Origin: Pirellulales bacterium
GTDB taxonomy: Bacteria > Planctomycetota > Planctomycetia > Pirellulales > Thermoguttaceae
NCBI GenBank assembly: GCA_016931075.1
Contig: JAFGFF010000300.1
Location: 1 to 64,000, forward strand
Length of the DNA: 64,000 nucleotides
Reading direction: 5' to 3'
A program made the translations under genes and the position numbers. Of this stretch, positions 3,175 to 49,000 are shown in pieces. Below the pieces are notes generated by a model, which made no database searches, had not been told where the DNA came from, and saw only the letters and a program-made list of their open reading frames with translations. Numbering within the stretch: position 1 is the first letter of the stretch; each line of letters opens with the position of its first letter.

Positions 3175-5064
3175 ATGAAACGGATCTTCTTCATTAGTGT
3201 CGCCGTGGCGGCCATCCTTCTTATGGCCCCGGCCAGGCTGACGGCGGCGATCGACATTCTTGTCGATGATCGTTACGACTCCAGCGGATTCTTTGCACCC
3301 GGTTCGGATGCGCGGAATACGTTGGAGGTTGCCATCAGCTTCTTCGAAGCCTTGCTCGATGACGATCTGACCGCGATCGAGTCGGATTCGACAAATCGGT
3401 TCGATATCCATTTACTCCAGCCCGACACGATCCAGTGGGTTACCATTGAAGACTTCGACGTTCCGGCTGACACACTGTTCCTCTTCGTCGGTGCTCTCGA
3501 TTTGCCTGGGACCACTCTCGGGGCGGCAGGCCCCGGCAGGTGGGATAGTCCTTCCGAAGACCAGGAATGGCTCGATAATGCCACCACGCGCGGCCAGGGA
3601 ACCGTGGCCGATACGACGGGCGACACGGCGATCGACTTCGCGCCGTGGGGTGGAATCATGACCATTGATTCGGGAACGATCTGGAACTACCGTGCCTCGG
3701 AAATGCCCGATCAAGGTGAGACCGACTTGTACACGGTCTTCCTGCATGAACTAGGGCATCTGTTGGGTATCGGACTCTCGGATTCGTGGAAGAACCTGCT
3801 TGAGGACGAGAGTTTTATCGGAACGCATTCCATGGCCGTACACGGCGGGCCTGTACCGCTACAGCCCGTCATAAAAAAGCACTGGGCCGGGGGAACCACC
3901 AGTCAAATCTACGGCGGTTCATTGTCGCAGGAAGTGAGTATGGCGCCGTCGGTCAATAAGGGAGACCGCAAGCTCTACACGGACCTGGACGTCGCGGGGC
4001 TCGATGACATCGGATGGGACACGAAACGGCCGGCGATCTGGGAGCCCGCCGGCGATGGAGCCTATGGCGATTTGGCCAACTGGAGCATTGGCGAGAAGCC
4101 GACCACGGATGACATCGTCTGTTTCGACGGAAATGGGGCTCATACTGTTTCGTTCTCAGCGGAGGAGAGCGTTTGCAGGGTATTCATCGAGAAGGCCGAT
4201 GTGACGCTCGATCTGGGAGGCAATCGTTTCACGGTCGATTTCCTGGAAGCGATGGATCCTGGCGCCACACTTACCATTCAGAATGGAACGCTGCAATTGC
4301 GCAGTTACGCGTCTCTGACGCACCATGAATCACTCCGTGTTGGAAATGGAGGCATGCTCCAATTGGACGGAGTGGTCAATAACACGGTGGTTCTAGGGGA
4401 AGGCGGAACCTTGACGGGAACGGGAACGATCAAAGGCAGCGTGACGGGTAGCGGTTGCGTGAGCCCTGGGGACAGCGTCGGAACGCTGAAAGTAGAAGGG
4501 GACTGTGCAAGCGATCGTATCTTCATTGAACTCGCGGGTACAACACAAGATGTAAACTACGACTTGTTGTCCGTTGACGGCTTGTGTTGGCTCGATAATG
4601 AATTGGAGATCGTGCTCCAAGACGGATTCGTTCCCTCCCTCGGCGACCAGTTCACGATCATCCAGTACGGCGACCGAAGTGGCGTTTTTAACACGCTGGC
4701 CGGGATCTCGCTACCCAACGGCCTGATTCTCATGCCGGACTATGGGCCCAACGCGGTCACTCTTTGGGCAACGACGATAGGCGACGTGACTTTCGATGGG
4801 CTGGTCGACATGGACGACGCGCGAGTGCTGGCCGAGCACTGGCTGCAAACCACCGCCGGTCCGTTCCTCCAAGGCGACCTGAACGGCGACGGCTTTGTCG
4901 ATGACCTGGACGCTTCGATCCTGGCCGCCAACTGGGGGACCGAACCGCTGCAGCCGGCCGTGCCCGAGCCGTCGGCGTTGTTGCTGGCGCTGGGGGCACT
5001 CGCGACATGGCGGTTCCGGCCGAGACGAGCCACGAATTCGGCCGCAAACTGCGACTTGGGATAA
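3175..5064 (+). CDS. Secreted zincin with beta-roll repeats, dockerin-like module and PEP-CTERM anchor
   Basis: Start chosen at ATG 3175 because GGAGGTG (3161-3167) lies 7 bases upstream and a signal peptide follows at once; the frame is open further upstream. The product is 629 residues. The zinc motif H191-E-L-G-H195-L-L-G lacks the His expected three residues after the Gly (Leu instead); a KKHW motif with His236 may supply the third ligand, as in leishmanolysin-like zincins, followed by an SMAPS Met-turn and GLDDIGWD. Residues about 350-500 contain glycine-rich autotransporter-type repeats. Near 540-595 come two Asp-rich dockerin-like loops (GDVTFDGLVD, GDLNGDGFVD). The C-terminus VPEPSALLLALG plus an arginine-rich tail is a PEP-CTERM sorting signal, which implies exosortase processing. 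The substrate is unknown. Confidence 0.88.
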   Translation: MKRIFFISVAVAAILLMAPARLTAAIDILVDDRYDSSGFFAPGSDARNTLEVAISFFEALLDDDLTAIESDSTNRFDIHLLQPDTIQWVTIEDFDVPADTLFLFVGALDLPGTTLGAAGPGRWDSPSEDQEWLDNATTRGQGTVADTTGDTAIDFAPWGGIMTIDSGTIWNYRASEMPDQGETDLYTVFLHELGHLLGIGLSDSWKNLLEDESFIGTHSMAVHGGPVPLQPVIKKHWAGGTTSQIYGGSLSQEVSMAPSVNKGDRKLYTDLDVAGLDDIGWDTKRPAIWEPAGDGAYGDLANWSIGEKPTTDDIVCFDGNGAHTVSFSAEESVCRVFIEKADVTLDLGGNRFTVDFLEAMDPGATLTIQNGTLQLRSYASLTHHESLRVGNGGMLQLDGVVNNTVVLGEGGTLTGTGTIKGSVTGSGCVSPGDSVGTLKVEGDCASDRIFIELAGTTQDVNYDLLSVDGLCWLDNELEIVLQDGFVPSLGDQFTIIQYGDRSGVFNTLAGISLPNGLILMPDYGPNAVTLWATTIGDVTFDGLVDMDDARVLAEHWLQTTAGPFLQGDLNGDGFVDDLDASILAANWGTEPLQPAVPEPSALLLALGALATWRFRPRRATNSAANCDLG

Positions 5065-23764: not shown

Positions 23765-26700
23765 ATGACGACGATCGACTTTTCACACGGCCGACACCTC
23801 CTGGCGCGGGTGATCCTCCTTTTGGCAGCGGTGTTCTCGGGGCTGACGATGGCCGTCGGCGCCGACATTGACATCACCAATGCCGATGAGACCGTCTCAG
23901 CCTATCCGAATGTGGACAATTTCACGTTTCGCAGCGGAGCAGGCAACACGGGTCAACTGATTGTTGCACAAGGGGCGGCGCCCGCGGCTACCCTGGCCGG
24001 CAATTTGACCCTCGAACGGGACGCCGCGGTCCGGTTCGACGGCACGTTGACCTACTCGGCCCTGGTTGCCGCCGCTGCGCGAAGCCTGGACCTCGGGGGG
24101 AACACGTTCACGTTTCTGAATAACCAGGGTGGGGCAGTTAATCAGCCGTTCAACGTGTTCTTCGGCGACATGGCGGGGGGAGGCACGTTCGCCGCCGCGA
24201 CCAGCGGACAGATCCTATTGCGCGGTTCGACGCCCGGCGATCCCACGGCCCAGTCGATCATCCTGCATCTCAACGGCGGGCAGTCGAACAACAACGGCAG
24301 CAACGTCCTGTTCGACTTTCATGGCGGCGGCCTGAGCGTCGACAATGCGCTTTCCCTACCGCAAACGATCACCGTTGTCGCCAAGTACGGCGCGGCCGTG
24401 ATGTTGCCCACCGACGGAACCACCATTGGTTCGAGCTTTTCCTATCAAGTCGATTCGGACAGCGGCAACTGGACGAACACGGGCGGGATGATGATCCTCG
24501 GCGACCTGACGCCTGGGTTGATTGTGCCCGCCAACGTGACCTATAGCGGAGCCGTCACCTACAACGGCACCAACTACGTCGACAACTACGGCCAGGCGTG
24601 GGGCCAGGCGACTGTCCTGGTCGGGGCGGGCACGTTCCGCTATGCCGATTCGGTCTTCGCCGACACTGACGCCCTGGCCGTTGGCGGCGGACGTAACTTC
24701 CTAACCGGAGCGATCGACCCCACGACCCGAGCGACCCTGGTCATCGTCAACCAGAGTAATCTGGACAGCCTGCCGACTAACCTGGGCTTCTGCGGCGGCA
24801 AGATCGACCTGACCGCCTTGGGCGGCACGGTCAATCTGACTGGCTTCAATCTGGCGGCAATCAACGTCGACACGGGCCCCGGCGATCCGTTCCCCGGCGG
24901 CGGGTCGTTGATCGTCAACGGCGCGGTTCCCGTCGTCGTCCAGATCGACGGCGTCGGCCTGTTGACGCGAGACGGCTTTCTCACCATCGAACGCAGCGGC
25001 GGCGCCAGCGCCGTGACGCTCGAAGTCGATTGCGGCGGCGGGCTGGTCGATCCGAGCAGCTTCGCCGGGTTCCTGTTGCCCACCGGGGCTACTGTCCGGT
25101 TCACGAACGTCACAGGCGACACGGTCGTCTCAGGCAACCTCGAAGGGAGCGGCTCGGTCGACGCCGAAGGGAAGAACCTGACGCTCGGAAGCAACGTCGA
25201 CGCCGATCAGCCGTTCGACGGCACGTTGGCCAACGTCGACGCCTTGAACAAGACCGGCACGGGCAAGACCGAAATCGGCAACGGCGCGACCGTCACGCCC
25301 AACTCGGCACAGGTTTCTCAAGGGGAATTGAGCGTCCAAAACGGCGCCACGTTCAACCTCAACGGCGGGGCCGGCACCTTGTCGGTCAACTCGGGCGGCG
25401 TCTTGTCGGGCGACGGAACGATCCAGGGCAACGTCGTGCTCGGCGGAGGCGGTTGGCTCAAGCCGGGCAATTCGATCGATGTCCACACGACCAACGGAAA
25501 CTTGACCCTGCAGAGCAACGGCGGCATCGAAATTGAAATCGTCGGGCTGCCCGGCGGACAGACCACGGGTGTGCCCGGTACGGATAACGACGTCGAACAC
25601 GTCACCGGCACGCTGACCGTCCAAAGCGGCGGGCGAATCCACGTTACCGAGGACAGCACGAGCGTCAACCCGTTCAAGGCGGGAGACCGGTATTACTCGC
25701 TGGTCGGCGAAGCGGGCATCGTCAATTCGGGCGGGCTCACGATGACCGACGACCTGGCCGGCGTGACCATTGATCAGTTCGGCGTTGAGAACACGACGTT
25801 CAATATCTCGGGCGGTCCGGTGACGGGCGATTGGCTCTGGTTCACGCTGATCGAAGGATTTTCCGCACAAACACCCAACGAGAGCCACGCGGCCGCTTAC
25901 ATCCTGTTTCAACATGGCTTGGGCGAGATGGGCGCCCTGTACACGGCGCTGGACGGATTGGATTCCCAACAACAGGCGGCGGCGCTTGGGACCCTGTCGG
26001 GCGAGTCGCTCGTCTCGGCCCAATCGCTCTCGATGGCCTCGGGACTTCTTCGTCTGCGGGTGTTGCTGAATCAGATCCGTCCGAGGACCTCATTCGACGA
26101 CGTCCTGCCCCGGTTCGCCGGTGCTGGTCAATACAACGGGATCGTCCGTGCGCAGAACTGCGGTTGCCCGGCGTGGAACGGCTGGGCATCCGGCTACGGC
26201 GCCGGCGGTTCGGTGCATGGCAGCCGGCAGACCAACTCGGTCAACACGTCCGTCGGCGGGCTGGTTACGGGCATCGATCGCCTGTTGTCCGCCGACACGC
26301 GGTTGGGCTTCTTCTACGGCTACGGCCACGTCAGCGGCAACTTCGACGCGCTGCAATCGATCAGCCGGATCGAGAACCATTTCTTCGGCGTCTACCTGAC
26401 GCGTCGGATGGACGATTGGTACTGGTTGAACACATTCGGAATGGGCTACGACGCCTACCGGTCGCGACGCCGCGTCGCCGTCGGCCCTCTGGTCGAGTCG
26501 GGCCTGGCTACGAATGACGGCTGGCAATCGCTCGTCTACTGCGAGTTGGGACGCGATCTGCCCTGGCGCCGCGCGATCCTGCAACCGTACTTCGGCCTGG
26601 AGTACGTCTATCTCCGTCAGAACGCGCTGACCGAAAACGGCGTCGTCGCGCCGAATACGGCCCTGGCCATGAACCCGATCGTGGATCAGGCGCTCCGCAC

Positions 26701-27013
26701 GCATCTGGGCGGGCGGATTTCGTTGCAGTCTTCCTGGCACGGGTACGGCAGCATGACCGAGTTCCGGGCCGCCTGGATGCACGACATGCTCGACGGCGCC
26801 GCGCCGATCACCGCCATGCGATTCGCCGGCGTGCCTGGCGGAGCCACGTTCGCCGTCAACGGCGCTGACTTGGCGCGCGATTGGTGTTGGCTCGGGACAG
26901 GCATCCAGTGCCAGTTGTCCGGCAATGCCAAGGTCTTCGTCGACTACGATCTGCTGATCAACGACCGGCAGTCGTTACACACCGGCAGCGGCGGCCTGGT
27001 CGTGCTGTGGTGA
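23765..27013 (+). CDS. Autotransporter (type V secretion) with beta-helical passenger
   Basis: A 1,082-residue protein in classical autotransporter order. A signal peptide ends near residue 33 (FSGLTMAVGA). A long glycine-, asparagine- and threonine-rich passenger follows (about 34-700) with PATR-like repeats such as FNLNGGAGTLSVNSGGVLSG and GNVVLGGGGWLKPGNSIDVH. A linker helix is seen near 720-780, then an outer-membrane beta-barrel domain (about 795-1082) with alternating aromatic strands (NHFFGVYLTRRMDDWYWLN, ILQPYFGLEYVYLRQNAL). The protein ends in GGLVVLW, the terminal aromatic expected for BAM-assisted insertion. The passenger has no recognisable enzyme. Such proteins are typical of proteobacteria. 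The gene is followed by a clear terminator. Confidence 0.9.
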   Translation: MTTIDFSHGRHLLARVILLLAAVFSGLTMAVGADIDITNADETVSAYPNVDNFTFRSGAGNTGQLIVAQGAAPAATLAGNLTLERDAAVRFDGTLTYSALVAAAARSLDLGGNTFTFLNNQGGAVNQPFNVFFGDMAGGGTFAAATSGQILLRGSTPGDPTAQSIILHLNGGQSNNNGSNVLFDFHGGGLSVDNALSLPQTITVVAKYGAAVMLPTDGTTIGSSFSYQVDSDSGNWTNTGGMMILGDLTPGLIVPANVTYSGAVTYNGTNYVDNYGQAWGQATVLVGAGTFRYADSVFADTDALAVGGGRNFLTGAIDPTTRATLVIVNQSNLDSLPTNLGFCGGKIDLTALGGTVNLTGFNLAAINVDTGPGDPFPGGGSLIVNGAVPVVVQIDGVGLLTRDGFLTIERSGGASAVTLEVDCGGGLVDPSSFAGFLLPTGATVRFTNVTGDTVVSGNLEGSGSVDAEGKNLTLGSNVDADQPFDGTLANVDALNKTGTGKTEIGNGATVTPNSAQVSQGELSVQNGATFNLNGGAGTLSVNSGGVLSGDGTIQGNVVLGGGGWLKPGNSIDVHTTNGNLTLQSNGGIEIEIVGLPGGQTTGVPGTDNDVEHVTGTLTVQSGGRIHVTEDSTSVNPFKAGDRYYSLVGEAGIVNSGGLTMTDDLAGVTIDQFGVENTTFNISGGPVTGDWLWFTLIEGFSAQTPNESHAAAYILFQHGLGEMGALYTALDGLDSQQQAAALGTLSGESLVSAQSLSMASGLLRLRVLLNQIRPRTSFDDVLPRFAGAGQYNGIVRAQNCGCPAWNGWASGYGAGGSVHGSRQTNSVNTSVGGLVTGIDRLLSADTRLGFFYGYGHVSGNFDALQSISRIENHFFGVYLTRRMDDWYWLNTFGMGYDAYRSRRRVAVGPLVESGLATNDGWQSLVYCELGRDLPWRRAILQPYFGLEYVYLRQNALTENGVVAPNTALAMNPIVDQALRTHLGGRISLQSSWHGYGSMTEFRAAWMHDMLDGAAPITAMRFAGVPGGATFAVNGADLARDWCWLGTGIQCQLSGNAKVFVDYDLLINDRQSLHTGSGGLVVLW

Positions 27014-27093: not shown

Positions 27094-27205
27094 CTTGTCA
27101 GGAAACGAACTCGATCGGGAAAGGCAATTCCGGTGAACAGGGGAAACCGTTCTTTGTGCGGATGCGGACATCTGATCGATACAGTTGAGAAGAAAGGGGA
27201 AGCCC

Positions 27206-28030
27206 ATGGTCTCGATACCCTCGAAGTACATCGCACTCTCTGTCATTCTCTTTGCCGCGCTGGGGCTCTTGCCGGGTTCTGCTTTGGGCAGCTTTTACGT
27301 CGGCGGAATGCTTAGCGCGAGCAACGTACCCGGCCCAGGAACAACGACGACCTTCGGACCGTACGATGGTATGTCCTATCTTGCGAAATCCGAGTCTCTC
27401 GTGGGAGCGGAAGCCAAGTTCATCGCTGATCTCAACAACGCGTCCTTGAGCACGTATGCTTCGGCAGTCGCTTTCCCGTTCGATAGGGCACGGAGTCGGG
27501 CCATGATGGGAGACGTCCTCACCTTCACCGTGCCAGCGGGCATGTATGCAAACGGAGTCCAAGCGGTTTTTGACGGGCACGTGGACGGAACGATCTCGAA
27601 GGGAATCAATTTTGCCACCAGCCAGAGCGTGTTTTTTGCGGTTGGAGATGGTTCGTTCTATCATGACACGTTCATCCGGGCTTATGATACCGATGGCGTG
27701 TTTGGCGAGAGCTTCCAACTCGTGGAACAGCTTGTAGCACCGGGCGAAACGCTTACTGCAGACACCATGTTCTTGGTGTCCTTCGACGCCTATATGCTGA
27801 GTGTGGCCGAAACCGGACCGGATTCGAATCAACTCGTTGATTTCTACAACACCGGCGCGATTACCGGCGTCGTGGCCACCGACGGCACAGCGGTCCTCGA
27901 AGACGTGACATGGACGTCAGAGTCGGGCTGCTTCCTTGCCGGCAACAGCACGATTCCCGAGCCGTCCACCCTGCTGATCTGGGGTATCTTCAGTGTTTTG
28001 AGTGGAATCGCCGTCTGGCGGCGACGGTGA
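27206..28030 (+). CDS. PEP-CTERM secreted protein
   Basis: Start at 27206 is chosen because AGGGGAAG precedes it closely and a signal peptide begins there (YIALSVILFAALGLLPGSAL); the frame is open 21 bases further. The 274-residue product has a beta-rich central domain without a recognised family and a C-terminal IPEPSTLLIWGIFS plus VWRRR, a PEP-CTERM signal for exosortase sorting. No exosortase gene lies in the window. It is followed by the fucosidase gene 162 bases downstream. The function of the body is unknown. Confidence 0.88.
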   Translation: MVSIPSKYIALSVILFAALGLLPGSALGSFYVGGMLSASNVPGPGTTTTFGPYDGMSYLAKSESLVGAEAKFIADLNNASLSTYASAVAFPFDRARSRAMMGDVLTFTVPAGMYANGVQAVFDGHVDGTISKGINFATSQSVFFAVGDGSFYHDTFIRAYDTDGVFGESFQLVEQLVAPGETLTADTMFLVSFDAYMLSVAETGPDSNQLVDFYNTGAITGVVATDGTAVLEDVTWTSESGCFLAGNSTIPEPSTLLIWGIFSVLSGIAVWRRR

Positions 28031-34066: not shown

Positions 34067-37000
34067 ATGTCGCTTTACCGATTGTCGAAGCTTCGCAGCA
34101 TGGCATCCGCGGTGGGAAGACTGGGCGGCCGACTCGGCTTGAGTCGCTTTGGCCGTGGCGAAGGCCCGGGCCGTTCCGGCCGGAGCGTAACAGAGCGATC
34201 CTATCGCCATTTGGCGGTCGATCCGCTCGAGCAGCGCCAACTGTTGAGCGTCACGCCGATGTCGCCCTACGACATGTTGGCCAACGAGTCGTTCGGCGGC
34301 ATCGTGGACAAAACCACACTGACGAGCACTCCTTCGCAATGGACCCAGGCGGGCCAATCGTTGGCCGTGGACGATGACGGCGATTTCGTCGTCGTGTGGA
34401 CGCGTCAGGATCCGGTGCTCGACCAGAATGGCGATCCCATCATCGATTGGAATACGGGCGAAGCCTGGTCGGACCAGAACGTCTACGCGCGATACTACAC
34501 GGACGAAGTGCAGCGGATCACATTGCCTGACGCGCTGGCGGTTGACAACGTCGGTGGCGCCTACGGTCGTTTCTCGCTGACCGTGGGCGGCAACGAGGTT
34601 CAGAAACTGACCGTGACGTCGACGTACGAACCGTACATGCCACAGTCTCCGATAATGGGCCAGTTTAACGTAGGATTCGACGTGAACGGCGACGGTACGA
34701 TCGGGTCGGGCGAGAACTACCCTCTGGTCTTCAACGAAACGACTATTACCGAGAACGCCCACCGGTTGCAGGTGCTCTTGCAGGGCATGGGAGGCGCGTT
34801 GATCGACGCCGAGGTCGAAGCGCTCAACGCGCGAGAGTATTTGATCCATTTCGGCAAGGAGTCGCACGGCCTCAATCAGCCGGAGATCGTGATCGATCCG
34901 AGTTTCGTCAACTTTTCTTCCGGCTTTTATCCCGCGGCGGTCATTTCGACGGTCAGCGAGCCGTTCACCATCGAAAACATTCCCGTTTCGCACAACAATC
35001 CCGAAGCGACCGCTAGCGTGCTCGAGCAGATATTCCTGCAGACCACGCGGGATCGTTACGTTGCTCCAGTTTCCGTGGGTTCGCCCCAGACAGCTCCCCT
35101 CATCTCCCGCTATGCCGACTGGCGGATATCCGTGACGCCTGTCGACGGGAGTCTGACGCAATTCGACGTTACTTTTGTCGGCGCCACGAGCAAGACGAAC
35201 CAGCCGGAAATGGTATTCGCGAAGGCGGACAATGATCTGGGTCAGTCCTTCCTCGGATCGTCGCAGATCGACGTCACGACGATCAAGGAGCCGAGTCCCG
35301 AGTTCCGCGTGAACGATCCGGAACCGGAAGACGACTTCACCCCCTGGCCGGACAAACTCGACCAATACGAACCGGCCGTGGCCATGGACGCCGACGGCGA
35401 TTTCGTCATTACGTGGACTAGCGAAGTGGGCCACGCGGAGAACGACGCGAATTCGACCGATATCTACGCGCGTCGTTTCAGGCCGGCGGGCTGGACGGAG
35501 CATCCCGAGTTCGTGCTCGAGGACGGGACCGAAGTTCAATCAGTTGTCCCCTTGGGATCTCAGTTCCTTGTCAATTCGTTCATGACGGGCGCGCAAGGCC
35601 AGCCGGCGATCGGGATGGACTACGACGGAAACTTCACGATTGCTTGGGCCAGCACCGCCCAGGAGGTCAGTCACTTCAACCGCATCGGGGCCCAGCGCTA
35701 CGATCGAGACGGCAACCGGCTTGGCACCGAGTTCATTGTTGTCGATCCGGACAACAACATAGACACCAACATCCACTTCGATCCCTACGTTTCGATGAGC
35801 GACGAGGGACATATCCTCTTCACGTGGAGCCAAACGACCAATCCAGCCTACCAAAACATCACAATCAAGGCGCGACTCTACGCACCCGGCACCGTCGACT
35901 TCTACGATTTCCGCCCTCTGGACACCATCACCTGGGAGGTGGCCCAGGGACAGAACTCGACCTCGTCGTGGGACGCGGACAACGACTTCCTCATCAGTTG
36001 GAACAACAGCGAGGACAACGACAACATCGGCGCGACCTCGCACGGCGTATTCGCCGAGATGTACTATGTGTATCAGCAGGAAGTCTTGGTCGACAACGTG
36101 CCTGATTTGCAGCTCGTCCCGGTTCTCATCCGGGACAAGTTCCGGGCCAACAGCGCCTCGTTCCCACCGCTGGGCAACACGGATTGGCCCGGCGATCAGG
36201 TCGGCTCCCAGGCTTTGCTCGATGCCGACGGCGACATCGTCATCACCTACGGTGGCTATGGTCCCGACGTGTCCGATGACAGCATCATGTTCGGCAGCTA
36301 TTACACCGATCTGATCAACGCCAACAAAAACGCCGACCTGCTCCCGCTCTTCAACCCGCTGATCGACGGTCTGATTCCGGTGGGCGGTATATCAGGCGGC
36401 GTGGATGCCGAGATCGAAGACATCCTCTATCAGGCGGTGAATAGCTTGGCGCCGACCGGCGTCATCGACGCCCTGTTGGCGGAGAAGCTTGGACGACTCC
36501 GCGCCATTCTCGAGTCCCGTGCAAACCTTATTCGAGGCGAAGCCAACGGCGTTCTCTTCAGCCGGTTCGATGCCGATTCCGTCGGCAACGATCCCGTGAA
36601 CGTTCTGGCCAGCGATAGTGTTGCCAACGCCCAACGCGACGGTCACAACGCGCGCTACATCATTGAAATCCACCGGACCATGAATTCGGGTTCTTTCACG
36701 GTCACGCTCACCCATCCCTTCAGAAATGGCAGCCAGACCGTCACCATCACGCCGGTCTACGACGCCGCCGGAATCGAAGTCGTTCCGGAAGCGACGCGAG
36801 CGGCCATTGAACTCGCATTGCGCAATGCAACCATCACAGGCTTGAATTGGCTCCCGGATCCGGCGCCCGATGATGGATCGACGGGCCCGGTCGATGTGCG
36901 ATGGGTGCAACTCCCTGAACTGCAGGCCCGCGACTTGACGCCCTGGCCGCTGGATCGGCCCGACGACCTCTACTATGTCTATGAAGTCACGTTCCAGGGC

Positions 37001-40000
37001 GAATGCCACGATCTGGCCATGGGCTTGTCGCTCGGCAACAGCAGCTTGGAGGATACGAATCAGGGTTATGGAAGGATAGCGCCGTACATCTATGAGTACG
37101 AGACGGGCGATCCGGGAACGATTCAGGACGGAGTCTCGGCCGGAATCGAGCCGGACGGGGACTACGTCATTGCGTGGACCCAATGGGAAAGGACCGTTGA
37201 CGGAACTGAAACGAACTCGAACATCTACTTCCGTGAATTCAACGAGGGCACCGACACGGTCGGCCCACGGCTGACCGATTTCCTGCAAGCGGACGGCACG
37301 CGGCTGAAGGAAAACGAGCAGATCACCGGGGAGGTGTCGTACGTCATCGTCACGTTTGACGAGGAGTTGATGACGTTCGATCCGCTCTATCCGGAGTCGA
37401 ACGCCCTGACCCCGGAGAACTGGGCGTTGATGATGGACGGCATGGACGGCGTCGAGATCACAGGAGGAATCAGCCAAGTCTACTTCGGCATGAACAAGTC
37501 GGCCGATCCGGACCTAGTCGCGCAGTACGGCCTGAACCCGCTCGGTTCGAACAAGTGGGAGGCCGTGCTGATCCTCGACGGCGATCCGGCCGAAGCAGGC
37601 GACCAACCATTGGGTAACGGCCAATACGCCATCGTCGCCAAGCACTCGTTGCGGGACGTTTCGGACAATCCGCTTGGCCGGTTCGGATATGACCTCAATG
37701 GTCAGGACGTTGGACGCGAGTTCTTTGTTCTGCTACCCGGCGGAGTCGAGACCCCGGTCAACGATCAGACGGCGGGCTCTCAGGAGGTCGTCGACGTCGG
37801 CCTCAGCCCGAGCCTTTTCCCCAATAGTCCGCAAGCCATTGCCGGCGACGTCGACAGTGACTATGTGGTCGTGTGGGTCGACGAGGAACCGGGACACGAA
37901 GGAGTCTACGCGAAGCTCTACACGACGCGCTGGTTCGAGAACGCCTCGGGCAAGCGGCAATCGGTTGTTACCGAGGTGGAGCCGATTAACCCGGCGACGG
38001 GATCGCCTTGGACGAACAACGAGATTCTGATATCGACCGACCCGACGGCCGAATACGCATCGGTCGCTCGGGACGGGGATGGCGATTTTGTCGTCACTTG
38101 GTCGGCCAAGACCACGTCGGGAGATTGGAACGTCTGGTATCGCCGTTTCGACGCGATGGGACGGTCGCTGGACGACGCGCCCAAGAAGGTCAACACCGAG
38201 ACCGATGGCGCGCAGCGGTTCGCCGCCGTGGCCATGGACAACGACGGCGATTTCACCATCACGTGGCAGAGTCAGGGCCAGGACGGCAGTGGTTACGGCG
38301 TCTACGCGCAGCGGTTCACCCGCGAGGGCTTGCGGCTAGGTGGTCTGGACGAGATCCAGGTCCTCTCGATCGTCGGCGATCCGTCCTTTGCCGAGTTTGC
38401 CTTGAAGTTCAACGGCCAGGTGACCGGTTCGATCAGCTACACGGGCGACCTGGAAGACTTGGCTGTCCGGATCGAACAAGAATTGGCCGCATTGGGAGTC
38501 GAGGTCGAGGCTTGGGTGCCCGGCGAAACGGACCATCAGGTGTACATCCGCTTTGTCGGCGAGGACGGTCGCGCCGATCAATCACCGATTTTGTTCGACT
38601 ACGTGACCATCCCGCCGAGCGGGAAGCTCAAGTTGAGCACGCTGGTCGAGGGCGAGGTCAGCGAGTTCCAGGTGGCCGACACGACCGAAGGCAACCAGGT
38701 CTTCCCGTCCATTGCGATGGACACCGACGGCGGGTTTGTCATCTCGTGGACGTCTTTTGGCCAGGATGGAGACGCGCCTTACGAAAGCAACATCTACGCG
38801 AAGCAGTATCCTGGGAACGATCTAGTCTTGCGTCAACTCGATGTCCTAACGCATGGTTTGGGCCTAGAGCATTCCGATCCCTCACGGATCGGCAAGCCCT
38901 ATATCGTGACCGCAACCAACAATCCGGACGACGTGCTGGTTACTCCAGGCACCGGGTTTGACGGCGTGGTTCGAGTTGACAACGACCTTGGAAGCGGCAG
39001 CGGGTCGCTTTTAACTTCGGGACACCACATTCTCACCGCCGCGCACGTGGTGGTCGATGAGTTTCTCGATCCCTTGCCGAGCAACACGATAACCGTGTCG
39101 TTCTTCTTGCCCGCAGGAGAAGTGATTGTTCCCGTTTCTGAGGTCTATGTCCACCCCGACTACGACGGCAATTTCCTGAACGGAAACGACTTGGCCATTC
39201 TCGTGCTGGCGGAAAACGCGCCGGTCGGGGCTGAACGGTACGACATCTACCGTGGAACAGACGAAGTCGGCAAGGAGTTCGAGAAATATGGTTACGGCCT
39301 CACGGGAACCGGGCAAAACGGAACCGATGAATCCATTGAAAGCGGCATCCGGCGAGGTGGAGAGAACAAGTTTGACGCACTAGGATCGCAGATCGAAATA
39401 TCTGCCTTGACGCTGGCATATGACTTCGACAATGGCCAGGTGGCTAATGACGCTTTGGGAGTTAAATTCGGTTTCCCCGACTTGGGTCTAGGCGATGAAG
39501 AGATTTGCGCCGCGCCTGGCGACTCTGGAGGCCCCTCCTTCATCAATGGCCTGATCGCTGGTGTCACCGCCGGTGGATACTCCGTGGACACCGGTGGTAA
39601 CACGGACATCGACAACACACCACTCAATTCCAGCTTCGGTGAAATTGGCATTGACATACGAGTTTCAGCCTACGCCGATTGGATCGACGCGGTTGTGGTG
39701 AGCAGCACGCCAGAGTTCCTCGTGAATCAACGGCTTTCTGGCGACCAGAAATGGTCGGACGTCGCGCTGGACGCGGATGGTGACTTTGTGATCACGTGGA
39801 CCAGCTACGGTTGGGACGGCGGCGGCAATGGCTACGGTTCCGGCTTCTGGGGCGAGAACGGCATCTTTGCGCGGCGATATACAAAAGAAGCAGACGCATT
39901 CGGCAACGAGTTCCAGGTGAATACGTTCACCGAGGACAACCAGCAGCATTCGCAAGTGGCGATGGACGCTGACGGCGACTTCGTAATTACTTGGGAGAGT

Positions 40001-43000
40001 TTCCAGGAGCGGCCGGTGCCCAACACCGGACCCGATTCGCCTGACAGCTACGGCATCTACGCCCAACGCTACGCCCGCAATTCTCAGATCGGCGTTAACC
40101 CATTGCTTGGACCATTCGGCGAAATCGGCGGCGAGCTGCACATCAACGGGACCATGCTCGGCGCCCAACGGTTTCCGTCCGTCACACTCGATGGGACGGG
40201 CGACGCCGTGTTCGTGTGGTCGGGCAACGGCTTGGGAGATATCGACGGAATCTTCACGCAGCGTTTCGAGAAACCCCTCGACGACGCTGGGCCGATCGTC
40301 ACGGACGTGCACAACGTGCTCCTCGACGCGGGAACAGCCATCGATGTGGAAGCTGTGCTGGACAGCCAGATCCTCTACTCCGAAGTCAGTTCCTTCGTGG
40401 TCACCTTCGGAGAAAATCTCAACACGGAATTCGAGGACCATGGTCCACACAGCGTGCTCAATCCAGATCATTGGCAACTCGTCCAGATTCTCAACGACGG
40501 GACGCACCAGGTTATCGAGGACGCGATTGCCCTAGTTGAATTCGGGCTGAACCGAGCGCTCCTCTCGGGTGTTGCTACCCAGTCGAGTAATAAGTACGAA
40601 GCAGTCATCACGTTCGACCGTGACGCAACGGTTCCCGGCGAACAGCCGCTCACCGACGGCGACTATATCCTTACCATCCGGGACGACATCACCGACCAGT
40701 TTGAAAACAGCTTGGATGGTAACTACGATGGCGACCCGGGCAGCGATTTCGAGTTTACCTTCACGGTCCTGACCTCGGCTAGCGAGACCCTGGTCAATGA
40801 TGAAACCATCGGCGATCAGGATGTCATGGACGAGGATCAGCCGATCGAAGAGACTCCCAACAGTCCTCAATCGGTTGATTCCGACGCCGACGGCGACTAT
40901 GTGGTCGTGTGGAGGAGTGAAGGCCCGGATACGGGCATCTACGCCCAGCTCTACGACGCGCTCTGGTTCAAGAATGCCGAGGGAAATCGGGAATCGCTTA
41001 TCAGCGAAAGCGGGATCATCGACCCGATTACACACAATCCTTTGGTGCAAAACATCCTGGTCACGGACGATCCGACGGCGACCTATGCCTCGGTGGCGAT
41101 GGACGCCGACGGTGACTTCGTCGTGACGTGGACGGCCTACAAGGAGGTCCGCGACAACGCCGGCAACATCGTTCACGATCCATACACCGGGCTGCCGTTG
41201 ACTGAAGCGAACGTCTATGCCAAATGGTTCGACGCTACTGGCAAGGCCGGCACCGATGAAATCCAACGGATCACCTTCAGCGACATCCCAAAGACCAGCG
41301 GAGCCACCGGGACACTGAAACTCGGTTTTAATGGGAGCATCACCACCGACATCAACGTGACCCTCTCGCAGGATCCGGCGACGCTGGCGGCTTTGGTCGC
41401 CAACATCAAAGCCAAGTTGCTCGCGTTGGGAATAGACGTGTCCATTGAGCTGGGCGACATCTGGGACACGACCAATGACGATACGCTCTTCAACGTTTCA
41501 GTGGTGGCCCGGTTCCAAGGCGCGGACAGCGAATTGGACCAGCCGGAGATCTCGCTCGAGGATGTGGTTTGGAACGGCACGCCAATTACGACCACGATCG
41601 AGACGGCTTTGCAGGGCGTCAGCGGCGAAGCCTTCCGCGTCAACACCGAAACGGAAAACGACCAGAAGTTCTCGACGATTGCCATGGACCACGACGGCGA
41701 TTTCGTCATCGCTTGGCAGTCCGACGGACAGGACGGCAACGGCGCCGAGGTCTACGCGCAGCGTTACAATCGCTTCGGCAAGGCACTGGGCGTGGTGGAC
41801 GAGCTGCAAGTCATCAGTTTCAACGGGAACCCGACCGGCACGTTCACGCTCGATTTCGGCGGGCTCACGACCGGCCAGATTGCCTTTAACGGCGATGCCA
41901 CAGCCACGGCCACGGCCATCCAGACCCAGTTGGAGTTGCTAGGACTGGAAGTTGAGGTCGAAGCGATCGGCGACGCCGACATCGAGGTTCGCTTTGTTGG
42001 CGCCGACGCCGGCAAAGATCAGGCCCCGTTGTTGGTGGCCAGCAAGAACATCTCCGGAGGCCCGCGAGTCGACATTGTCACGACGACCTCGCAAGACGGC
42101 CGGGCGGGTGAGTTCCGGGTCAACCAGGCCACCGAAGGAGATCAGCTCTTCCCAGCCGTGGCCATGGACGCGCGTGGCAACTTCGTCGTGACTTGGACCT
42201 CGTACGGGCAGGACGGCGATGCCGAGGATGAAACGAACATCTACGCCCGACAGTTCGTCTGGATCGACGACGTGGACGGGGAGCACACCGTCAACAGCGG
42301 AAGTGAGTTCCTCGTTAACCAGGCGATCCTCGGTGATCAGCGATGGTCGGCTGTGGCGATGGATCAGCAGGACGATTTCATCATCACCTGGACGACTGTC
42401 TCGCTCGGTGATCCGGGAGACGACGAAATTATCGGCTCTGAAGGGCAGCAAGATATCTTCGCAAGGCGATTCCTCTTCCAGATCTCGACCGAGGACACTC
42501 CTGTGGAACCGGTTCTGGCCGCCGATGAATTTCAGGTCAACACGTTCACGCGTGGCACCCAGCAGCATTCGTCGATCTCGATGGACGCCAACGGCGACTT
42601 CATCATTGGGTGGGAGAGTTTCCAGGACCGGCCGATGCCTCCGTTAGGCGTGTTAAACGTGCCCAACAGCTTCGGCGTTTTCACACAGCGCTATTACCGC
42701 CGTGAGATGCTCGGTCTGGCTGGAGGTCCCAATGGCGAACTGGGGGTCGAGACTGAGATCAACGGCACCGTCAACCGTGATCAGCGGCTGCCGAGCGTCG
42801 CGTTGGACGACACGGGCGATCTGGTGGTCGTGTGGAGCGGTACGGGCGAGTTGAAGGGCCAGGAAGATGATCAGGGCGTCTATTATCGGCACTTCGACCA
42901 GGTGGACGACGAGGCCGGGCCCACTGTGACCGACGTGGCCAACGTGTTCGATCCGGAGGGCGGTCCGATTCTCATCGAACCAGTCGTCTACGATCAGGAG

Positions 43001-46000
43001 ATCGACTCACTCGTGACTCGGTTCGTAGTCACCTTCAGCGAAGATATGAACGCTCTGTACGGCGATCTGGGCGCCCACAGCGTGACCAATCCGAATTTCT
43101 GGCGTCTGGAGAAGAACGACGACGTGATTGTCGGCGGCATTCACTCAGTGCAGTTCGGTCTGAATCAGGCTTATCTGTCGGGATTGAGCGAGACCCCGAG
43201 CACGAAGTACGAGGCGATTGTCACATTTGACTTGAATCCGCTCACGCCCGGCCTGCAACCGCTAGATGACGGTAAATATCTCTTGAGCGTCCGGCCGGAC
43301 ATCAAGGACAAGTTCGGCAACTCGCTGGACGGAGACCTGGACGGCGAAGTGGGCGGGACGTTCAGCCACGAGTTCATCGTGCTGGTCGGTGAAGGCGGAG
43401 ACACGCCGATCGACCAGAATCCGGTGATCAACGGCCGGACGTTCCCCGAAACGCCCGGGGCCGTTGACGTGGACGAAGACGGAGACCACGTCGTCGTGTG
43501 GACCGGCTATGACGCAACGATCAATCGGGACCGCGTTTTCATACGGGTCTTTAATGCCGACGGCGAGAGTTCCAGCCTGCTTCTGCCTGTTACCCCGACC
43601 ACCGAAACCGTGTCGGACGCCTTCGACGACGATATCCAGCGCTATGCATCCGTGGCGACCGACGCCGACGGCGATTTTGTGGTCACGTGGACAAACTACC
43701 GTGATGCCGACAACAACACGGCCAACGGCCACGAGGAGGTCGACGTCTATGCCCGGCGGTACCAGGCCGACGGAACCCCGATCGGCAGCGCATTCCGCGT
43801 AAACACGCATCTGAAGAACGAGCAGAAGTGGTCCAGCGTGGCGATGGATCCCGACGGGGATTTCGTCATCGCGTGGTCGAGCTACGGCCAGGAGGACCCG
43901 AACCAGTTTAGCTACGGCATTTATGCCCGACGCTACGATATGTTTGGCCGGGCCCTGGGGTGCGAGTTCCAGGTGAACGTGACCACCGGCGGCGACCAGC
44001 AGTTCCCGAGCGTGGCGATGGACGCCAACGGCGCGTTCGTCATCGTCTGGCAGAGCGACCAGAACGGCGTCGGCGACGACATCGTCCTGCGTGAGTTCAC
44101 CTCCTCAGGTGCGCCGGTGATCGGTCCCCGCGGCGGCGAATACGTTGTCAACGACACTACTGACGGTGACCAGCGTTACCCCGACGTCGCAATGAATCTC
44201 AGCGGCGACACCTACGCGGTGACCTGGTCGAGTTCGCAAGGGACCAACGATCAGAGCGGATTCGGCATCTACACGAAGTCGTTCAATCGACTGGACGCCA
44301 CCGAATTGAACGTCACCTACGGCTACCAGGGCTTGCCGGTGGACTTCGACGACTTGACACAAGTCTGGGTGCCGATTGTTGTCGACCAGAACTTCACGAT
44401 CCGCGACGTGAACGTACGATTGACGATCTCGCACGACGACCCATCCGACTTGATGGTCCAGTTGATTGGTCCCGGCGTGATCGATCCGGCTGCGGGGATT
44501 CCAGCGGGAGTGGTTGTTGCCACGTTATTTGACGAAGTACCCCGGCAGGGAGACGAGGATGGATACACCAGCGGCGGCCCCAACGGGACGGATTTTGACC
44601 GGACCGTCCTGGACGACGAGGCCGACCTGTTGATCACCGACGTCGACAACGGGGTTCTTCCGCCGTTTACCGGCGAATTTCGACCGCAGGAACCGCTGGC
44701 CGTCTTCGACGGCGTTCAAGGCCAAGGTATTTGGTGGTTGCGGATTATCGACCAAGACCCGCCGAGCGATCCTGACGTTTACATCGACGACGAAGGCATT
44801 CGTCACAAGTACGTCGACGGCGGCCGGTTGCGGACCTGGTCGCTCGAGTTCACGCTCGACCCGGTGGCCGCTTCGCCCGAGACGCTCGTCAACACGACGA
44901 CCGAAGGGAACCAACTTTATTCGTCCGTCGCGATGGATCACCAAGGCAACTTCATTGTGGTTTGGAGCGGCTACGGCGATCAGGAGGATCAGGAAGACCA
45001 CTCGCAATACGGCGTCTTCTCTCAACGGTTCAACGCGGCCGCCAGCAAGCAGGGAGACGAGACTCGCCTCAACGCGGCCACGCAAGGAATGCAGTGGGTG
45101 CCGTCGGTTGGCATGGACGGTGAGGGTAACTTCGTCGCCGTCTGGACGGGCGTGGGAGTGGATCCTGCAACTATTTCTTCGCTCTACAGCTACGTCAGTG
45201 CGAACCATGATCCACAAGCGGACATCGACGGCCCCATCGTCAGCGGTGTCGAGCTGGTTGACGGCACGGTCCTGCTCGATGGGGGCGTCGTCGGGGTCAA
45301 CCTGACCTCGATGATCATCGCCTTTGGCGAAGATTTGTCCACGAAGGAGATCGTGGTTGGCGGAGAAAGGACTCCAGCCCTCGAAAGCATCCTGAATCCG
45401 AACAACTGGGTCCTGCAACGCAACGGGACCGAGATTCTTGGCGCTGTCTCCGACGTCGCCTTTGTCTGGGATCCCGATCTGCGGCGTTACCAGGCCGAGG
45501 TGACGTTCGACGGAAACGGCATGAGCACCGGCACCCCCGGTTTGGCGACCGGAGACTACACCCTGACGATCCGAAGCCTTGTCGAAGACCTCAGCGGCAA
45601 CTCGCTGGACGGCGACTACGATGGGCAGGCGGGCACCGCGCCGAGTTCCTTCGGCTACGACGGATTCCATATCCAGTTCAGCGTGCCGTCGCAAGATGAC
45701 GTGCTCGGACCCGAACGACGCGTCAGCGAGGATCCCGAGTACTATCAGACACTGTCCGAGCCTTTGGGTACGGGCTTCGCCCGGGAAACGACCAACACGT
45801 CGGTGGCCGTCGACAACGACGGCGACTATGTGGTTGTCTGGACCAGCTATGGCCAGGATGATCCGACCGATCCGAACGGAGCGGGCGTCTACTTCCGGCT
45901 GTACGACCGGAATGACACCCAGATCCTTCCCACAACTCGAGTCAATAACATCACAACCGGCCACCAACGCAACGCGTCGGTGGCAATGGACGCCGACGGC

Positions 46001-49000
46001 GATTTCGTCGTCGTCTGGGAGGCCAAGGGCTCAAACGGCACATGGGAAGTCTATTCCCAGCGGTTCAACGCCGCGGGCAACCGAATCGATAATTTGCGCG
46101 AAAACCGCCTCGACCAGGACCCGAACCGCAACCAGTCCGGCGTTGAAGACATCGAAGTCCTGGTCAACTCGACCATTGCCAACGAGCAGTACAACCCGGC
46201 TGTCGCGATGGACGATTTCGGCAACTTCATCGTCGTCTGGGGCACAGCCGGCCAGAACTTCAGCTACTTCAACAACATCTTCGCTCAACGGTTCGACTAT
46301 CACGGCCAACCGGTCGGTGAAGAGTTCCAGATCAACCAGGTCGACGAACCCGGCACCAACGGGCCGGGAATGGTGCCCGACTTCCGGGCCAACCCGACCG
46401 TGGCCCTGGGCAACGACGGCACTTTCGCCGTGGCGTGGGACCAGTTGGTGGAGCAGATCTCCGGCGCGGTCAGCGACACGAACATTGTCGTTCGGTTCTT
46501 CGACGCCGACGCTCTTCCGACCACGGATGAAATCCAAGTCAATGCGGACGAAGTCACTACCCGCGACGCTTCGCATGATGATCCCGAGGATGCAACAGGT
46601 GGAACCGATATCACCCGACATGCCCGCAACCCGCAAGTGGTCATGGGCACGGACGGCACGGTGATCGTGGCCTTCGAGTCGTATCAGGACAACGATTTCA
46701 CGGGCGGCGAAGACGGCCCGGACAGCTACGGCATCTACTACCGACGATTCGCCGCGGACGGCACTCCGCTGACCGACGGTGTCCAGCAAGCCAATACGGT
46801 CATCACCGACGACGGAGCTGTACCCGCACAGACCGCGTTGGCAAACCAATTCGCCTACGCCCAGGTCAACGCGGCCATCGGCATCGACGCTAACGGCGAC
46901 TTTGCCATCTTCTGGAACGGAAACGGCGCCAACGGGCCCGATCCGCTCGATCCGGAAAACCCGGACCTGGTCTCCGGACACGATTCGGACGGGGTCTTCG
47001 GACGCTGGTTCAGCTCGGGCTCCGACACGATTCTTTCACTGCCCACCACCGTGCAGATGCGGGTCAACCGGACGATCGGCGGCGTGCAGCAGTTCCCGTC
47101 GATCGGCATGGAACCGGATGGCGACGTGATCGTCGTCTGGGCCGGAGCCGGTGTGGGTGACCAGCACGGCATCTTCTCGCGTCGCTATGACAATACGACC
47201 GACACGGCCGGTCCCTTGGCCACTGAACTGCGACTCGGCGATGTCGACGACTGGATCGGCGAACCAAACCGTCTGCTAGGCGACGGCGACAACGTCTACG
47301 GCAACCCGAATTCCCTCCTGGTTGTCTTCGACGAAAATCTGAACACCGAGATGAGCGGCCCCGGTGGGACTCCCGGGCTCCACAGCGTTGAGAACGTGAA
47401 CAACTGGGCCCTGGTCAACGGCCGGAACGAAGAACTCGACGGCGCCATCCATCACGTCACGTTCAGCTTCGACACGACGCTGAACAAGTGGGTGGCTGAA
47501 GTCTTCTTCAGCGACGGCGCCGGCGGTGCGGGCGCATTGGCCAACGGGACCTACACACTGGTCGCAAGGACCGAAATCCAGGACCTGATGGGCAACGCCT
47601 TGGGTTTGACTGGCTACCGTCCCAACGGCACCGGCACGATCCTGGCCGTCCCGGTCGATCCGGACAATCCGGACGGCCCGACCGAGCCCATCCCGCTCGA
47701 TCCGGTGACCAGCCAGCGCGGCGGTTTCGGATTCCTGTTCCGGGTCAACAGCACGGTTCCCGGCTCGGCTCCGTGGGGTGACGTTGACCAGCAGGTCAAC
47801 ACGAACAATGACGGGATCCAAGACGCCGCGGCGGTGGCTCGCAATTCCTTCGGCGAATCGGTCGTGGTTTGGGTAGACTACGCCGAGATTCCCGATCCCA
47901 ACGCCGATCCGGATGATCAAAACCCGCCGACGATCCTCGATGCCAACATCCGGGCGCAACGGTTTGACCGCTATGGCCGGATCCGCGGCGAAGAAATCGC
48001 CGTGAATAGCCTGACCACGGGCGATCAACTCGATCCCGACGTGTCCATGGACGACCAGGGCAATTTCATCGTTGTCTGGTCCGGCGTGGGCGAGGAGTTG
48101 ACCGAGCTGGCGGGCATTTTCGGTCAGCGGTTCGACAGCGACGGCAACGCACTGGGCGGCCAGTTCCGCGTGAACCAGTATATCAATAGCATCCAAGACG
48201 AGCCGGCTGTCGCGATGAATCGCAACAACAGCAACTTCGTCGTTACCTGGACGAGCTTCGGCCAGGACGGCAGCCGTGACGGCGTCTACGCCCGCGAGTA
48301 TCTCCTCAGCGGCCAGCCGGTCGGCAACGAGTTCCGCGTGAACACGCGGACACAAGGCGCCCAGGGCACGCCCGACGTGGCCATCGACGGCACCGGCCGG
48401 TACGTCATCACCTGGGCGAGCGAAGAGCAGGACACGAGTGGTTTAGGTGTCTTCGCCCAGCGTTACACCTGGGGCGCGGTTCCCGTCGGCGCCGAGTTCC
48501 GTGTGAACACGACACAAATGGCCGATCAGTTCGATCCGGCCGTGGCGATGAACGATCATGGTTGGTTCATCATCACCTGGACCAGCGAGCAGGACGGCAG
48601 CGGCTACGGCGTTTATGCCCAACGCTACAACGAGCAGGGCGCCAAGCTGGGTGGAGAGTTCCGCGTCAACACGACAACCGTCCATGACCAACACCAACCG
48701 GCCGTGGCCATGTCGAACGACGTCTTCGTCGTCACGTGGACCTCGTTCAACCAGGACTACCCGCAGGATGAAGATGTCCGTGACAACGGCGTCTACGCTC
48801 GGATGTTCAACGTGGCCGATGGGTCCGACTACGTCGATCCGCGTGTCGGGTTGGTAGGCGAGTTCCAGGTCAATGCGTTGACCGAAGGGGACCAGTCCAA
48901 TCCGGACGTGGCGATGGATGCTGAGGGGCACTACAGCATCGTCTGGTCCGGCCAGGACGCCGACTATATAGCCCCCTCCGTCGCGCCCCAGGATCCGAAT

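Follow-up and report, generated by a model that had tools for sequence, protein, structure and literature searches.

NalP, EstA and AaaA are autotransporters that carry enzyme passengers. Two surveys of the type Va class name Proteobacteria, Fusobacteria and Chlamydiales, and the string 'planctomycet' is absent from the texts searched (PMC9289746, PMC3419190). From the PVC superphylum, nine autotransporter-barrel outer-membrane proteins of Akkermansia muciniphila have been described by proteomics (PMC4960237), and a 2012 paper argued that planctomycetes possess an outer membrane, complete with BamA and LptD (PMC3422733). Our search of open-access papers gave no report of a planctomycete autotransporter, and figure 7 of PMC4793230 may show some in its distribution of secretion systems. 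Here we describe a gene in a 64,000-nucleotide stretch of a Pirellulales genome (the window; contig JAFGFF010000300.1 of assembly GCA_016931075.1) whose product is very probably a classical autotransporter (type Va) indigenous to the Planctomycetia.

The gene (positions 23765-27013, forward strand, as are its parts and the zincin gene described below) is one open reading frame (ORF) with an ATG start and encodes 1082 residues. Its N-terminus has a basic and hydrophobic stretch and a cleavage-like V-G-A site at residue 33, which by inspection of the sequence we read as a putative Sec signal peptide (residues 1-33, cleaved between VGA and DID; 23765-23863), and residues 12-23 form a helix in our full-length model, at low confidence. 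There follow a passenger region without a known domain by Pfam and NCBIfam (23864-25321); a cap module preceding the linker (residues 520-697; 25322-25855), delimited by our alignment A6, by matches within the organism's own genome and by the start of a match to the NCBIfam EprS model NF051851 at residue 518; an alpha-helical linker, with four helices in the full-length model (residues 704-771; 25874-26077); and the translocator barrel (residues 805-1082; 26177-27010). The barrel matches PF03797 over residues 807-1062 and profile positions 2-255 of 255, with 156.9 bits against a cut-off of 26 (E 1e-45), and this is the single PF03797 match at E<=0.001 in the genome, a 6.06 Mb draft of 491 contigs with completeness 93.94 and contamination 2.95. 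The protein ends in ...TGSGGLVVLW, with W1082 as its aromatic last residue; this C-terminus is the last barrel strand, and the PEP-CTERM model PF07589 is absent from the protein at E<=0.1 in the Pfam scan. The original prediction, made from the letters of the window, had called a complete type V autotransporter with a signal peptide, a linker and a barrel ending in GGLVVLW. Each of these parts was recovered by inspection, modelling or profile search, and together with the passenger they bear out a type Va architecture.

AlphaFold2 models of residues 690-1082 and of the full length were built from eight sequences. The former is of modest confidence (pLDDT 57.7, pTM 0.57) and shows helices in the linker and twelve strands that are each at least nine residues long. 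Searched against the PDB with Foldseek, it retrieved autotransporters throughout ranks 1-13, and VIA-align gave Z scores of 27.8 for NalP (264 residues, 2.9 A), 26.8 for EstA and 25.1 for AaaA. Rows 1-18 of the VIA-align comparison are autotransporters, the lowest at Z 18.6. A KdgM porin, the first protein of another kind, comes just below them at Z 17.8, so part of the score reflects any outer-membrane barrel. A profile of 38 planctomycete barrels (A2) matched 18 PDB sequences, all of them autotransporters or constructs of autotransporters, with EstA best at 3e-39 and AaaA, NalP and EspP also among them. A barrel model that failed to close had been named as one result that would count against the assignment; the model obtained resembles the 12-strand translocators, and what it provides, at its modest confidence, is likeness rather than closure. 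A porin-like or decayed barrel that has lost passenger export might be argued from the single copy and from an N-terminal passenger with no match to a known family, but the frame is open over 1082 codons, the glycine and aromatic positions are conserved in alignments with relatives and the last strand is intact there, and on these grounds we reject decay as very unlikely. In our barrel tree an aromatic residue ends 78 of the 79 planctomycete barrels and all nine of the proteobacterial ones; the one planctomycete exception is a domain cut short, and its ORF ends in W.

The original prediction had described a repeat passenger, and this was not confirmed. Over residues 32-690 the best ungapped self-match scores 54, inside the range of 36-59 for the best matches in 15 shuffles (one above 54), while the same ungapped comparison yields 2619 for L084, a relative whose PATR array is genuine. 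Neither PATR nor TIGR02601 has a match in the autotransporter at E<=0.1 in the Pfam and NCBIfam scans, and the TIGR04393 repeat model of NCBIfam is likewise without a match. Upstream of the cap module Pfam matched nothing, NCBIfam matched nothing before residue 518, and Pfam autochaperone models gave no match to the cap module itself at E<=0.1. In the full-length model (pLDDT 51.6) confidence is below 50 over residues 1-348 and the structure is beta-rich only at about residues 430-700; block-mean pLDDT is 68-89 over residues 491-700, except for dips to 53-56 near 591-610 and 631-640. A Foldseek search with this model placed the autotransporter Ssp at rank 23, a weak match over 228 columns (E 6.7e-3). 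Our best guess is that the passenger would remain attached at the cell surface and serve as a stalk for adhesion or matrix binding; the Pfam scan found no subtilisin or other protease domain in it.

The cap module, a stretch of about 180 residues just before the linker, also occurs in eight other ORFs of the same genome. Alignment A6 brings together its copies in the window autotransporter and in L081-L087, seven relatives, and when used as a profile against the genome it found nine places: the autotransporter (E 5e-40), a zincin encoded at 3175-5064 of the window (E 1e-12, with the module at 4351-4611) and seven more (4e-17 to 3e-4). One of the eight other ORFs, L128, is cut by a contig end, and the remaining seven, the zincin included, end in tails that by inspection are PEP-CTERM-like. 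Three of these seven tails pass a curated PEP-CTERM cut-off (PF07589 in L126 and L127, TIGR02595 in L124 and L126), those of the zincin, L121 and L125 fall short of the cut-offs, and L123 matches no PEP-CTERM model at E<=0.1, its tail being read by eye. Of the seven, five have a dockerin match above the cut-off (L121, L123, L124, L127 and the zincin). For the zincin the dockerin scores 29.4 bits (cut-off 22.9), and two further matches fall below their cut-offs, PEP-CTERM at 17.4 bits (20.7) and matrixin at 23.4 (24). The genome as a whole has two exosortase genes and at least 113 PEP-CTERM matches (from scoring 150 of 226 candidates), against one autotransporter barrel.

The passenger had further been said to resemble this zincin in its repeats. 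What survives of that likeness is the cap module and not any repeat: direct BLASTP between the two proteins is weak (E 0.026), so the shared-module claim rests on the A6 profile search, and the EprS profile is matched in the same place by the autotransporter (profile positions 468 on) and by the zincin (473-530). These matches also bear on the contig itself. With a draft of 491 contigs and a contamination value of 2.95, it might be supposed that binning had brought in a contig that is not planctomycete, but the same contig bears the zincin with its cap module, dockerin and PEP-CTERM-like tail, a kind of protein also present on other contigs of the genome, and isolates of the group have the same barrel subfamily. 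Contamination is therefore rejected, and we consider it extremely unlikely.

Zincins seem not to be confined to one type of ending. Both the window zincin and L121, which has a dockerin and a PEP-CTERM-like tail as that zincin does, resemble the NF038122 metalloproteases (E 3e-8 and 6e-11 respectively, below the 80-bit cut-off). At another Pirellulales locus, L086, a zincin-like passenger is followed by a barrel of the autotransporter family (121.6 bits). That passenger has a HEIGH motif, seen by eye, and matches NF038122 (E 3e-5) and matrixin (E 0.039), both below cut-off; BLASTP against the window zincin aligns the cap module at E 6e-4 and the enzyme portion at E 0.002. Across the genome most copies of the cap module are followed by a dockerin and/or a PEP-CTERM-like tail and one is followed by the barrel. 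The module is predicted to be in general use among the beta-rich proteins that this organism exports, and its position before either a PEP-CTERM-like tail or a barrel suggests one exported scaffold with either of two C-terminal addresses; the simplest reading of the sequences would be that a single folding cassette can be combined with different C-terminal addresses. A broader proposal, which we offer tentatively and with less than even confidence, is that the Pirellulales may equip the beta-rich proteins that they export with a single interchangeable folding cassette and vary what follows it, either a dockerin/PEP-CTERM tail (exosortase) or an autotransporter pore, that NF038122-like zincins may thereby cross between the export routes (the window zincin and L121 as against L086), and that the pore may be inserted here by a two-piece BamA. 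The sharing of repeats between type V and PEP-CTERM proteins has precedent in NCBI's TIGR04393, the 'T5SS/PEP-CTERM-associated repeat', and in this genome L123 is over the TIGR04393 cut-off and L124 over that of TIGR02601. The present analysis adds the module adjoining the linker, which within a single genome is followed by endings of two kinds. The shared module also opens a comparison of two export routes on one scaffold in one cell.

The presence of an autotransporter had been taken to support a true outer membrane, with absence of BamA as a finding that would speak against the whole assignment. The genome search found one Omp85/BamA barrel (150.8 bits) with a POTRA ORF adjoining it, and a marginal LptD match (23.7 bits at a cut-off of 22.4, covering 63 of 384 positions). 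TamB, which is reported to help some autotransporters, was not found in this genome by a search that was positive in 6 of 14 control genomes. The Omp85 barrel and the POTRA ORF, with LptD marginal, are consistent with a true outer membrane. By what is known of the family, the autotransporter would be exported by Sec, and the C-terminal barrel strand ending in W would effect the hand-over to the BAM machine. The passenger would then cross the nascent barrel with its C-terminus leading. Once outside, the cap module (residues 520-697) would be the first part to fold and would pull the remaining passenger into a beta-rich stalk, and the helical linker would plug the pore.

The BamA of this genome is encoded by two ORFs, a 593-residue POTRA protein with four PF07244 stretches and a 560-residue Omp85 barrel. 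The POTRA ORF has its own signal-like start and ends in TAG, the ATG of the barrel ORF comes at once, and the N-terminus of the latter is lipoprotein-signal-like (VGVVGC). Among 37 distinct BamA loci that we compared, 24 are fused, 11 are split and two are cut by contig ends; several were chosen for short frames, so the split share is not a frequency. This set leaves aside L061 and L067 (shorter copies of L136 and L134), L060 (the own locus, kept as L135) and L137 and L138, which are exosortase loci with no barrel. The split loci belong to ten genomes, this one and nine order-level relatives, in six families. In most of them the two frames overlap, so that a sequencing frameshift is possible at any single locus, and that reading is weakened by a hydrophobic stretch before the barrel in every split barrel ORF (best 12-residue mean 1.46-2.71, as against 0.47-1.73 in fused BamA linkers, a slight overlap). 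On a quick tree the split label is clustered, yet two to five changes are required. Our search of open-access papers gave none on a split BamA; the split form would offer a test of whether the insertase requires covalently attached POTRA domains.

The PF03797 family is widespread, if patchy, in planctomycetes. It is over cut-off in 18 of 60 close relatives, in at least 45 of 392 genomes sampled across the phylum and in at least 61 of 397 Planctomycetia genomes, and at E<=0.001 the corresponding counts are 19, at least 54 and at least 64; the phylum and class counts come from scoring no more than six candidates in each genome. Within the organism's own family, 10 of 36 sampled genomes have a match at E<=0.001, with up to 20 places in one. 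Isolates of Rhodopirellula and Roseiconus carry relatives of the autotransporter at 28-40% identity, and two of them, Rhodopirellula maiorica (L082) and Roseiconus nitratireducens (L087), repeat the whole architecture. When alignment A3 was used to scan named genomes through one peptide pattern, it gave seven loci, planctomycete throughout (Rhodopirellula sallentina, R. maiorica, Roseiconus nitratireducens and four MAG loci), in a search that favours planctomycetes since the pattern was made from planctomycete sequences.

A barrel tree was constructed from 88 rows and 278 columns, with 79 planctomycete barrels and nine proteobacterial barrels, the latter all from plasmids, and without Verrucomicrobia or Chlamydiae rows. 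Four duplicates were dropped beforehand: L001 (a copy of the window), L083 (of L005), L084 (of L022) and L086 (of L015). L020 and L097 had no usable barrel domain and stand outside the tree; L097, E. coli Ag43, was intended as an outgroup and gave no A2-profile match at the limits used. The barrel phylogeny, which the original prediction had proposed as a check, puts the window barrel inside supported (starred) clades of 9, 23 and 41 rows, each all-Planctomycetia, and the nine proteobacterial rows lie outside all three; several rows have long branches, two of them in the 9-row clade. Trees that forced the window barrel together with nine, six or three proteobacterial rows were rejected by the AU test (p 1.8e-5, 0.003 and 0.02), the first value carrying in addition the cost that the nine rows are not one clade. 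The nearest row to the window barrel is R. maiorica at 39% identity, against at most 28.6% for plasmid records among the matches listed (40 of 83).

Composition gives mixed evidence on transfer. The autotransporter gene (GC 0.640, GC3 0.824) is similar to the upstream TraB-like gene (0.627, 0.827) and to a fucosidase gene (0.629, 0.821), and lies above the gene directly downstream (0.568, 0.676) and the zincin (0.585, 0.693). A recent horizontal transfer from a proteobacterium could draw on that excess of GC3 over the downstream gene, on the patchy spread seen in 10 of 36 same-family genomes and on other same-family barrels in distant parts of the tree. Given such barrels elsewhere in the tree, several lineages of barrel exist side by side, and there may have been exchange within the phylum. 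The all-Planctomycetia clades, the AU rejections (with nine outgroup rows, all plasmid-borne) and the higher identity to R. maiorica than to the listed plasmid matches argue against an import from outside, however, and we reject it as quite unlikely. The suggestion that an autotransporter here indicates transfer is thus not supported by the tree or by the breadth of the family in the Planctomycetia. The type Va autotransporter seems, from its phylogeny, to have been long resident in that class rather than recently imported, and the presence of a well supported Planctomycetia branch in Rhodopirellula isolates makes surface export in the phylum directly testable.

Set beside the described systems, the window protein is like the EprS/Ssp autotransporters (NF051851; PDB 8e7f) in that residues 518-1073 match EprS at E 6e-28 and Ssp is a weak Foldseek match, and it differs in its sub-threshold score (97 bits against an equivalog cut-off of 1700) and in having no subtilisin domain in the Pfam scan. 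With the translocators of NalP, EstA and AaaA it shares the fold (Z 27.8, 26.8 and 25.1), EstA being the best PDB profile match, whereas identity to the window barrel is 14-16% over the aligned part and enzyme passengers of the kind that these proteins carry were not seen. The TIGR04393/TIGR02601 PEP-CTERM proteins are linked to it through L123 and L124, cap-module ORFs of the same genome that match these repeats, and the window protein departs from them in matching neither repeat and in ending in a barrel. The autotransporter-barrel proteins of Akkermansia muciniphila are alike by description and differ in their host, which belongs to the Verrucomicrobia.

Directly 3' of the autotransporter, and on the same (+) strand, lies a gene for a small PEP-CTERM-like protein (window 27185-28030), the product of which matches PF07589 at 16.8 bits, below the cut-off of 20.7. 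A zincin-like passenger and an autotransporter barrel were found joined in one protein of a Pirellulales MAG (locus L086, 3598-6816); the zincin-like part is N-terminal and carries the motif HEIGHLLGM, and the passenger matches NF038122 with an E-value of 3e-5, below the cut-off. The own genome (G000) encodes a second NF038122-like zincin on contig C218 (locus L121, 1183-3135), with the cap module, a dockerin (42.6 bits) and a PEP-CTERM-like tail. Contig C164 of the same draft holds a PATR-bearing ORF with the cap module (21-266; loci L116 and L128), broken off within that module by the contig end.

The window also contains a single ORF of 5474 aa (34067-50491), which was scanned for domains in two pieces. 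Residues 1644-1873 form a trypsin-like domain (E 1e-10); besides this and a sub-threshold CopC match, the two-piece scan gave no further match at E<=0.001.

Autotransporters are numerous in some planctomycete genomes: the 4.2 Mb draft of a relative (G009) has them at 20 places, and many genomes of family f53 carry at least six each.

In the own genome BamA is divided between two ORFs, one with the POTRA domains and the other with the Omp85 barrel (contig C323; locus L135, 1744-5205), and we saw the same arrangement at loci L064, L079, L129-L132, L134, L136, L139 and L140. The split barrel ORF has its own signal, lipoprotein-like or Sec-like. Among 37 distinct loci, several of which were chosen for short frames, 11 have a split BamA and 24 a fused one, and the remaining 2 are truncated by contig ends.
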